Source of the DNA: a virus
Length of the DNA: 27,870 nt
Virus record (IMG/VR): IMGVR_UViG_3300030098_003824
Location: 1-27,870 of that record
Direction: 5' to 3' (one strand)
Shown piece after piece: positions 10,698 to 12,923 of the stretch. The notes under the pieces are model-generated. The model had not been told where the DNA came from and did no database searches. It saw only the letters and a list, made by a program, of their open reading frames with translations. Position 1 is the stretch's first letter. Every line of letters begins with the position of its first letter. A program made the translations under genes and the position numbers.

Positions 10698-11414
10698 ATG
10701 CCTTTACCAAAAATTACCGCACCAACCTATGAGTTGGTATTACCCTCATCTGACAGAAAAGTCAAATATCGCCCATTTCTTGTAAAAGAGGAAAAACTCC
10801 TTATTATAGCAATGGAGAGTGAGGACACAAAACAGATAACTGAAGCAGTTAAGAATGTTCTTAAAAATTGCATATTAACAAGAGGTATTAAAGTTGAGAA
10901 ACTTTCTACTTTTGACATTGAATATCTATTTTTGAATATTAGAGGTAAATCAGTTGGTGAAGATGTTGAAGTTATGATTACATGTCCTGATGATGGTGTA
11001 ACTCAAGTTCCTGCTGTAATTAATTTGGATGATATCAAAATAGTTACTTCTGATGAGCATACAAGAGATATTAAAATAGATGATACATTATCCATTAGGA
11101 TGAAATATCCTTCTATGGATGAGTTTATCAAAAACAACTTTGATGTGTCTGATATGGACATTGATGATACATTTAAGTTAATTGCTTCTTGTATTGAACA
11201 GGTATATTCCGAAGAGGAATCTTGGACTGCATCTGACTGTACTACTAAGGAATTAGTTGATTTTATCGATCAATTGGGTTCAAAGCAATTTAAAGAAGTT
11301 GAGAATTTTTTCACTACAATGCCAAAATTGTCTCATACTCTTAAAGTTGTAAATCCTAAGACTAAAGTTGAAAATGAAATCCTACTGGAGGGACTACAAA
11401 GTTTTTTCGGGTAG
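10698..11414 (+). CDS. gp26: gp26-like baseplate hub assembly protein
   Basis: 238 aa (T4 gp26 is 208), of the T4 baseplate protein family. The N-terminus MPLPKITAPTYELVLPSS with KYRPFLVKEEKLLIIAMES is the characteristic start. A central beta region (VMITCPDDGVTQVPAVINLDD) and a helical C-terminal part ending LLEGLQSFFG follow. In T4, gp26 is needed to build the central hub. The last codons before the stop are AGT TTT TTC GGG TAG, forming a T TTT TTC slippery heptamer followed by a hairpin. A -1 shift would run into the next ORF and make a 301-aa product. That layout resembles frameshifted tail-assembly chaperone pairs of other tailed phages. Confidence 0.8.
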   Translation: MPLPKITAPTYELVLPSSDRKVKYRPFLVKEEKLLIIAMESEDTKQITEAVKNVLKNCILTRGIKVEKLSTFDIEYLFLNIRGKSVGEDVEVMITCPDDGVTQVPAVINLDDIKIVTSDEHTRDIKIDDTLSIRMKYPSMDEFIKNNFDVSDMDIDDTFKLIASCIEQVYSEEESWTASDCTTKELVDFIDQLGSKQFKEVENFFTTMPKLSHTLKVVNPKTKVENEILLEGLQSFFG

Positions 11415-11443
11415 GTATGGCTCATGAAAACCTAGAGTCATAC
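11402..11443 (+). promoter_or_regulatory. Candidate -1 programmed frameshift signal
   Basis: The heptamer T TTT TTC is at 11402-11408, in the correct phase of the gp26 frame. Six bases (11409-11414, GGG plus the TAG stop) separate it from a hairpin: GTATGGCTC (11415-11423) with GAGTCATAC (11435-11443), nine pairs including one G-T, with an 11-base loop. After a -1 slip the frame continues CGG GTA GGT ATG into the 61-aa ORF with no stop. The hairpin also covers the ATG at 11417, so it could instead control that start. Confidence 0.6.
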
Positions 11444-11602
11444 TATAAGGTAAACTTCGCCTTGATGCAACATCATAAATATAGCTTAACTGAGCTAGAA
11501 AATATGATTCCTTGGGAACGAGAAGTCTATCTATCTCTTCTGCAACAGTACATTGAAGAAGAAAACTTAAAAGCAAAGCAAGAACAAGCAAGTGGCAATT
11601 AA
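11417..11602 (+). CDS. Small baseplate-assembly ORF (gp51-like position; possible frameshift product)
   Basis: A 61-aa helical protein: MAHENLESYYKVNFALMQH, then YSLTELENMIPWEREVYLSL and a charged end. The LTELENM-x-x-WERE-x-Y-x-x-LL pattern resembles the short second halves of tail-assembly chaperones and the end of gp51-type hub assembly factors; this is a weak likeness. It begins three bases after the gp26 stop in the -1 frame. It could be made alone from ATG 11417, whose upstream GGTAGGT is a weak ribosome site, or as the C-terminal extension of gp26 by frameshifting. It overlaps the next gene by 11 bases. Confidence 0.7.
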   Translation: MAHENLESYYKVNFALMQHHKYSLTELENMIPWEREVYLSLLQQYIEEENLKAKQEQASGN

Positions 11603-12923
11603 TCAAACTGCTTTCCCTAATATAGCAACACCAACATTGAAGAAGACTAGTCTTTCTTTTAAAAATTTTGGTGCAAACTCTAATGGTGTAAGCCCAGTTG
11701 AGAAATTGTCGGCTAGAGTAAAACAAGTAGAAATAACAAATGATGCATTAGTATCTCAAAATAGAGATTTTCAATCAAGTATTGCTAATATTAATAATCG
11801 CATTGGGGCATTAGAGTCTGGACAAAAGGCAATTCTTGATTTTCAGAAAGATAAGGCAAAAATAGAGAAGAAGCAAAGAGAATTAGAAGAACAGAGAATT
11901 AAAAAAGAGGGTGCAGAAGGTGCTCTTGAAAAAGATGATGCAGATGCTATAAAGAAGACTGATGGTTCTGTTGAGAAGAAAGGAAAGGAATCTGTAGGAT
12001 TCTTGGAGGGTATAAAGAAATTCTTTATGTTTACCATTGCTGGATGGTTTGCAGATAAATCAATGAAATTGATTAATGCATTCGCTTCTGGTAATAAGGA
12101 TGCTATAAACAGTATTGGAAAGAAACTTTTGGGTGGTTTGGCAGCAGTTGGTAGTTTGATGTTAATTGCTGCAGCTGGTATTGGTCCAGTTCTTGCTGGT
12201 ATAGGTTCTTTAATTGGTGTATTAGCAGGATTATTGTTTAATCCAGTTACATTAACTGCATTATTAATAGCAGTTGGAATTGGTGGTGCAATTATGGGAA
12301 TAAGAGCACTTTGGAAATGGGGTAGGAATAAAGCAACTGGTGGACAAAAGTTTACGGATAGGCATAAGGAACTGGATAAAAAACTAAGAGATGCTGGAAT
12401 GACATCAAAGGGTTTAATTGTGAATGAGAGTGGTATGGGCAAACATACTAATAGGACACCAGAGCAAGAAAAATTATTCCAAGAAGTAGAGGCAGAACGT
12501 GCTAAATTAAATGCTACTAAAAAATCTATGCAAGAAGAAGTAGATGCAGCAAGGAAGCAGTGGAAAAAAGATGCAATAGCAAATAGAGATGCAAGGGGAG
12601 ATAAAAAGGTAGATTGGAAAACAGAAAATGCTAAATGGAAAGAGCAGGAAGCTGCTATTAGAAAGAAATATACAGATACTATAACTCCATCAGCAAGTAG
12701 TGGTAACTTTGTAAAATCTAATGTCAATACTTCTGATGTTACTTCTAAGATTGGACCTGAACCAAATAATGAGGGGAATATAAGTGTTGTTCCAATACAA
12801 AAAGAAGTTGGAATGCCTAATAATAGTGCTAGTGGAACTGCTACTACTGTTGATTATATTCCTAGTGAAAATTCTGGTAATAGTACTTGGCAAGCAAAAT
12901 CACAATATGGAGTGGTAGGTTAG
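11592..12923 (+). CDS. Putative tail tape-measure/hub protein, first of a pair
   Basis: 443 aa from GTG 11592, the only sensible start since the next Met is near residue 146. Residues 36-116 are a long charged coiled coil (VEKLSARVKQVEITNDALV; KIEKKQRELEEQRIKKE). Residues 140-165 hold GIKKFFMFTIAGWFADKSM, and 179-239 are strongly hydrophobic and Gly/Ala-rich (LGGLAAVGSLMLIAAAGIG and NPVTLTALLIAVGIGGAIM). A charged helical region and a disordered Ser/Asn-rich tail follow. Coiled coil plus membrane-seeking segments is the usual make-up of tape-measure proteins. In T4, gp28/gp29 occupy this position beside gp26/gp51 and gp27. The name is inference from layout, not from sequence identity. Confidence 0.55.
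   Translation: MAINQTAFPNIATPTLKKTSLSFKNFGANSNGVSPVEKLSARVKQVEITNDALVSQNRDFQSSIANINNRIGALESGQKAILDFQKDKAKIEKKQRELEEQRIKKEGAEGALEKDDADAIKKTDGSVEKKGKESVGFLEGIKKFFMFTIAGWFADKSMKLINAFASGNKDAINSIGKKLLGGLAAVGSLMLIAAAGIGPVLAGIGSLIGVLAGLLFNPVTLTALLIAVGIGGAIMGIRALWKWGRNKATGGQKFTDRHKELDKKLRDAGMTSKGLIVNESGMGKHTNRTPEQEKLFQEVEAERAKLNATKKSMQEEVDAARKQWKKDAIANRDARGDKKVDWKTENAKWKEQEAAIRKKYTDTITPSASSGNFVKSNVNTSDVTSKIGPEPNNEGNISVVPIQKEVGMPNNSASGTATTVDYIPSENSGNSTWQAKSQYGVVG

Follow-up and report, generated by a model that had tools for sequence, protein, structure and literature searches.

The window that we analyzed, meaning the whole stretch of DNA under study, is a 27,870-base IMG/VR virus record from a member of the T4-like cyanophage group, and it contains one PF12322 gene. 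This gene, gene 26, is followed in the -1 frame by a 61-aa ORF, which raises the question of whether the two reading frames are two genes or a single gene with two products. The original prediction was that a -1 programmed frameshift fuses gp26 to the 61-aa ORF.

Layout of the gene 26 junction

The features of the junction, with the main evidence for each, are as follows.

10698 to 11414, + strand: gene 26 (238 aa), predicted short product, TAC-N form; PF12322 E = 9.7e-75, phrog_150 positions 5-232, top fold match a tail assembly chaperone (model of the relative L262)
11387 to 11392, + strand: GGAGGG, Shine-Dalgarno-like element, candidate 5' stimulator; 9 nt before the slip site
11402 to 11408, + strand: slippery heptamer T TTT TTC; in phase in 202/204 distinct junctions, low synonymous variation
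11408 to 11602, + strand: -1 frame extension (64 codons plus TAA), TAC-C, predicted C-terminal part of the 301-aa fusion; open -1 frame in 203/204, the 61-aa part matching phrog_150 positions 239-278 and phrog_634
11412 to 11414, + strand: zero-frame stop TAG of gene 26; sequence and ORF list
11415 to 11423, + strand: hairpin 5' arm, which holds the ATG of the second ORF; fold z -3.25, covariation
11417 to 11602, + strand: 61-aa ORF as mechanically called, named gp51 in relatives' records; ORF list and annotations
11435 to 11443, + strand: hairpin 3' arm; fold z -3.25, covariation
11592 to 12923, + strand: next gene, candidate part of the tape-measure module; position only

On rereading the sequence, we find that gene 26 ends AGT TTT TTC GGG TAG with T TTT TTC in phase, and that a six-base spacer (11409 to 11414) separates the heptamer from a hairpin of nine pairs, all of which agrees with what had been predicted; one of the nine pairs is G-U. 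The -1 frame is likewise open from the slip site (CGG GTA GGT ATG) up to the TAA at 11600 to 11602, and the predicted fusion length of 301 aa is correct, with 237 residues from the zero frame and 64 (3 + 61) from the -1 frame. The RNA from 11409 to 11450 is predicted to fold at -12.7 kcal/mol, which is a z score of -3.25, and 0 of 200 shuffled sequences are equally stable.

The bare word TTTTTTC occurs 11 times in the window, compared with 11.1 expected, so that the word by itself is no proof, and what matters is only its phase, its location and how well it is conserved. An in-phase X XXY YYZ heptamer within the last eight codons is found in 3 of the 64 window ORFs of at least 60 aa, and gp26 is the one among these three that has a long -1 extension, which runs 62 codons past the stop versus 8 and 14 codons for the other two. 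We also considered a second in-phase TTTTTTC inside gp26 (11306 to 11312), which was rejected: by eye, its -1 frame reaches a stop after ~10 codons, and it is shared by 2 of the 190 relatives that have Phe-Phe at this position.

The predicted tryptic peptides of the window protein are VENEILLEGLQSFFR for the frameshifted form and VENEILLEGLQSFFG for the terminated form. The predicted tryptic peptide VGMAHENLESYYK of the fusion has its start before the ATG of the second ORF.

Conservation of the slip site and the open -1 frame

Relatives were collected from five viral-contig scans and from 16 named phage records, T4 included. The set has 271 sequences, counting the window and excluding T4 (L084), which has two separate genes and was therefore not counted among the junctions. 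Four sequences (L005, L118, L186, and L260) did not enter the count because they were too short, leaving 267 readable junctions, of which 204 are distinct. The holders of the sampled junctions are cyanophages, pelagiphage HTVC008M, Aeromonas phage Aeh1, Cronobacter phage S13, Vibrio phages, and Pseudomonas phage pf16.

An in-phase slip heptamer is present in 202 of the 204 distinct junctions (TTTTTTC in 194 and TTTTTTT in 8), and 203 of the 204 have an open -1 frame, so the two ORFs stand in the same relative frame across relatives. Together with stem covariation within the window's own clade (see below), these results support the predicted -1 fusion of gp26 to the 61-aa ORF. In HTVC008M (L085) and pf16 (L087) the heptamer is T TTT TTT, and in HTVC008M the stop follows it directly.

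Counts given below on a basis of 202 are the 204 distinct junctions minus L262 and L089. The latter is Vibrio phage K471 (2845 to 3585), in which the -1 frame is open and the in-phase heptamer is absent (CTT TTC AAG TAA); it may use another mode of slippage. L262 (1501 to 2394) lies on a 236-kb metagenome contig and has both frames in one ORF of 297 aa without a slip site, the slip site being two bases shorter than that of L010. This is either a genuine constitutive fusion or a sequence error, and it counts against the frameshift model because, unless it is a sequence error, such a fusion is unexpected under that model.

Constraint on the slip codons

The codon alignment contains 201 genes and 231 testable columns; L179 was left out because its extracted gene contained a stop. 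When these columns are ranked by synonymous variation, the two Phe codons of the slip site are the lowest and second lowest, and the codon that precedes them is the fifth lowest. All 201 genes have a T immediately before the two Phe codons, although the residue encoded by the codon that ends in this T varies (S, A, N, D, or G). The terminal Phe-Phe is slippery in all 201 aligned genes, while other Phe-Phe dipeptides in the same genes, which serve as an internal control, are slippery in 4 of 216 cases (2 in-phase TTTTTTC and 2 TTTTTTT). Since the aligned rows share descent, we give counts rather than probabilities. The comparison indicates that the heptamer is kept beyond coding need and far beyond chance. 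The residue at the second position after the slip is I, V, or L in 199 of 199 sequences, which we did not use as evidence because the overlapping stop codon largely forces this residue.

An upstream Shine-Dalgarno-like element

A GGAG, GAGG, AGGA, or AGGG core is present no more than 18 nt upstream of the slip site in 193 of the 202 junctions, and the spacer is 8 to 9 nt in 192 of the 202. The background for such a purine core is 10.3% of in-gene 18-mers (4,532/43,879). Within the element the Glu codon is GAG in 152 of 189 cases, compared with 1,350 of 4,496 for Glu elsewhere in the genes and 13 of 51 in other Glu-Gly pairs. This GAGGG-type element is a part of the signal that was absent from the original prediction. 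Excerpts of a review place stimulatory Shine-Dalgarno sequences for -1 shifts 9 to 14 nt away (Atkins et al. 2016, PMC5009743), and the spacer of 8 to 9 nt is near that range. Based on its position and codon usage, the element is a candidate stimulator, and it could stimulate slippage alone.

The same T run could also be read as a site of transcriptional rather than ribosomal slippage, since at least six T's in a row are found in 202 of the 204 junctions. We consider this extremely unlikely. The run is short, the bacterial cases in the excerpts of the Atkins review being on runs of nine A or T (PMC5009743). Moreover, 194 of 202 junctions retain the final C even though TTT would lengthen the run, and the run is phased and accompanied by a Shine-Dalgarno-like element and a hairpin, as for ribosomal slippage.

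Start codons of the second ORF

If the 61-aa ORF were instead a separate, gp51-like gene that is translated from its own ATG by termination-reinitiation, the heptamer would be incidental. The database records list the ORF separately, 131 of 202 junctions have an ATG no later than the fifth -1 codon, and the tight spacing of stop and ATG in the window (TAG GT ATG) would suit coupled reinitiation. However, ATG, GTG, and TTG are all absent from the first ten -1 codons in 43 of the 202 junctions, yet the frame is open from the slip site in nearly every junction, as described above. Also against a separate gene, the slip codons are among the least synonymously variable, and T4 carries the fused form as one gene. 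A Shine-Dalgarno motif precedes the second ATG in 0 of 131 cases, which is weak evidence because the start of gp26 itself also lacks one. Taken together, these observations make a separate gene very unlikely, and they indicate that the second ORF is generally not free-standing.

The annotations of relatives are uneven. The C domain is annotated as a short ORF of about 31 aa in P-SSM7 and of 45 aa in S-RIM8, and it is unannotated in Aeh1, S13, and S-MbCM7. The frequent lack of a start codon explains why annotators give truncated genes or none.

The downstream hairpin

We defined the hairpin clade as the sequences with at least 68% gp26 identity to the window, which is 78 sequences, 70 of them distinct. 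At least 7 of the 9 pairs of the stem are present in 69 of the 70 distinct clade sequences, and 93.8% of cells are paired, versus 19 to 46% when the register is slid. Covariation in the clade is 0.163, compared with 0.059 for shuffled alignments, and 0 of 500 shuffles are as high. Most of this comes from one pair, which is U-A in 29 sequences, G-C in 22, and A-U in 14; at this pair the silent base of an Ala codon tracks an amino-acid-changing base (Glu/Ala/Val) in the opposite arm. S-SSM7 (L095), with 56% identity, has the same nine-pair register with one pair changed.

The prediction of a covarying stem stands for the window's clade, but the hairpin is conserved in only part of the group: in the whole set, at least 7 of the 9 pairs in the window register are found in only 96 of 202 junctions. 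Folding is unremarkable in the 106 junctions with fewer than 7 pairs, although they keep the heptamer: they have a median fold rank of 0.21, and the 31 S-RIM8-like ones among them have 0.48. Some other clades have different local stems, for example GGTCC-ATAT-GGACC.

Folding is tied to the presence of an early start codon. Among relatives in which an ATG occurs by the fifth -1 codon, 104 of 131 fold within the lowest 5% of windows from their own gene, compared with 7 of the 43 relatives that have no start in ten -1 codons. In L041 and L243, whose gp26 is 71% and 70% identical to that of the window, the ATG and the hairpin are both absent and the heptamer is kept. Accordingly, the fusion could be made while the chief task of the hairpin is not to stimulate slippage, for which the upstream GAGGG element could suffice, but to conceal the second ORF's ATG and thereby prevent synthesis of a free C domain. 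The link of hairpin and ATG counts against a pure stimulator because a pure stimulator would not need an ATG. Against a hairpin that only hides the ATG, the ATG is located in the 5' arm, so that losing one mechanically breaks the other, and clade history confounds the correlation. Furthermore, a strong hairpin persists in L203, L205, L218, and L221 although they have no start codon, 14 of the 131 ATG-bearing relatives fold weakly (rank about 0.2 or more), and a 6-nt spacer suits a frameshift-stimulating hairpin. We regard a chiefly masking role as a serious possibility, at somewhat worse than even odds.

The hairpin may stimulate slippage; since it is clade specific and tied to the ATG, masking of the ATG may be a second role. 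A broader suggestion, which we put forward tentatively and which may well not hold, is that the signal is modular, with an ancestral core of GAGGG and heptamer to which unrelated hairpins were added clade by clade, one and the same stem both tuning slippage and silencing or regulating a free C-domain protein. The basis for this suggestion is that the hairpin occurs where the C-domain frame has an ATG at its start, and that where this ATG is lacking the hairpin is often lacking too.

The gene 26 product as a probable tail assembly chaperone

PF12322 spans gp26 of the window and of T4, as well as residues 1 to 201 of T4 gp51. Exactly one PF12322 gene is present in 15 of 15 non-T4 phage records, and two are present in T4. 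From 199 of the 202 -1 extensions we built a profile (TAC-C) and searched it against five T4 proteins. It matched T4 gp51 at residues 207 to 244 (i-E 4e-7), and in this five-protein search T4 gp26, gp27, gp28, and gp29 were not above the inclusion threshold. T4 gp26 is therefore PF12322 alone and T4 gp51 is PF12322 plus TAC-C. Based on the spread of PF12322 and the TAC-C match, the counterpart of the predicted fusion is T4 gp51, and that of the short product is T4 gp26. Short and long products with a shared N-terminal part are what the sequence predicts, and T4 gp51 is the in-frame equivalent of the long one.

As a structure model we used the natural in-frame fusion of L262, which has a mean pLDDT of 71.6, with most of residues 11 to 80 above 95. 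Its best four fold matches are the HK97 tail assembly chaperone 2ob9 (Z 8.1), 3fgx (Z 7.5), YqbN 3klu (Z 7.0), and 5ir0 (Z 4.6); the next match, which is unrelated, has Z 3.9. The HK97 match covers 84 residues at 4.3 Å, with a Z close to what common arrangements can attain. Among these four, only 2ob9 is named as a tail assembly chaperone in its PDB title, and we take 3fgx, 3klu, and 5ir0 to be chaperone-like structures. The N-terminal fold is thus like those of the HK97 chaperone and YqbN over 84 to 86 residues, but identity is 6 to 7% and the PF12322 protein has roughly twice their length. Foldseek gave no match at E 0.001 or better (HK97, E 0.42; 3klu, E 2.6). A sequence search of the PDB gave 0 matches for gp26 and, with the alignment as the query, 3 that are weak and unrelated. 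That the gene 26 product is a tail assembly chaperone is strongly supported by homology and fold, from which we infer its function.

The gene at 11592 to 12923 starts with a GTG at 11592, which overlaps the end of the -1 frame by 11 bases. Its protein has no PHROGs or Pfam match, and its P-SSM2 counterpart likewise has no family match. In HTVC008M, the second gene after the homologous locus is a tape measure gene by profile (8.4e-12). No tape measure was identified in the window by the PHROGs search.

Discussion

Based on the slip site, the open -1 frame, the upstream element, a hairpin that covaries in part of the group, the single PF12322 gene per non-T4 genome examined, and the TAC-like fold matches, we conclude, with a probability of about 0.92, that -1 ribosomal frameshifting at the end of gene 26 makes a long tail assembly chaperone. 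Both the occurrence of slippage and its efficiency are what we infer from comparing sequences.

In the mechanism that we propose, gene 26 would encode the short chaperone form, TAC-N, and a minority of ribosomes would shift back by one base at T TTT TTC and then read 64 more codons. This would yield a scarcer long form of 301 aa, TAC-NC, the counterpart of lambda gpGT and T4 gp51. The signal would consist of the upstream Shine-Dalgarno-like GAGGG, the heptamer, and, in the window's clade, the downstream hairpin. By analogy with lambda, the short form would coat the tape measure and the long form would recruit the tail tube protein.

Vladimirov et al. are said to have found that frameshifting is conserved in several T4-like groups and that T4 instead uses genes 26 and 51. 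The papers that cite this work credit it with the T4-like TAC frameshift (Vladimirov, Gautam and Davidson 2022, Virology 566:9-15). Some T4-like phages have a short copy and a fused long copy instead of frameshifting, according to excerpts of the PRFect paper (PMC10885494, citing Vladimirov et al. 2022), and polyT -1 signals are known in the TAC-N genes of T4-like phages, according to excerpts of the phage Adele paper (PMC12846349, citing Vladimirov et al. 2022). The kind of signal described here is therefore already known, as far as these citing papers report it: the gene family is the same, short and long forms arise through a polyT -1 slip, and some T4-like phages have separate genes. In T4, genes 26 and 51 are separate and on opposite strands, while the window has a single gene with a slip site. 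In the titles and abstract openings that we searched, which mostly fall outside subscription journals, we found no description of a frameshift in cyanophage gp26, nor of the cyanophage signal in the present detail. The window is a clear example of the known G/GT tail-assembly-chaperone frameshift, with a fuller signal than the original prediction gave.

Two further systems are similar in different respects. In the lambda gpG/gpGT system, as predicted for the window, ribosomes shift to the -1 frame shortly before the short chaperone gene ends and so produce a long fusion; the excerpted review describes gpG/gpGT as the chaperone of the tape measure protein, with a molar ratio of 30:1 (Atkins et al. 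2016, PMC5009743).

The other is the -1 frameshift signal of E. coli dnaX. As in the window, an upstream Shine-Dalgarno-like element, a heptamer, and a downstream stem-loop make up the dnaX signal in the excerpts of that review (PMC5009743), but the dnaX heptamer is A AAA AAG and the protein is unrelated, while the heptamer in the window is U-rich and is read by tRNA-Phe.

For the T4-like cyanophage records examined, this reading would make "gp26" and the small "gp51" two products of a single gene, with several of the short gp51 annotations being either truncated or left out. The three-part signal and its correlation with the ATG can be tested with reporters across a natural set of some 200 variants. 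The frameshift would also link a group of abundant marine viruses to lambda's rule on chaperone ratios, with T4 as the case in which both products are encoded separately.
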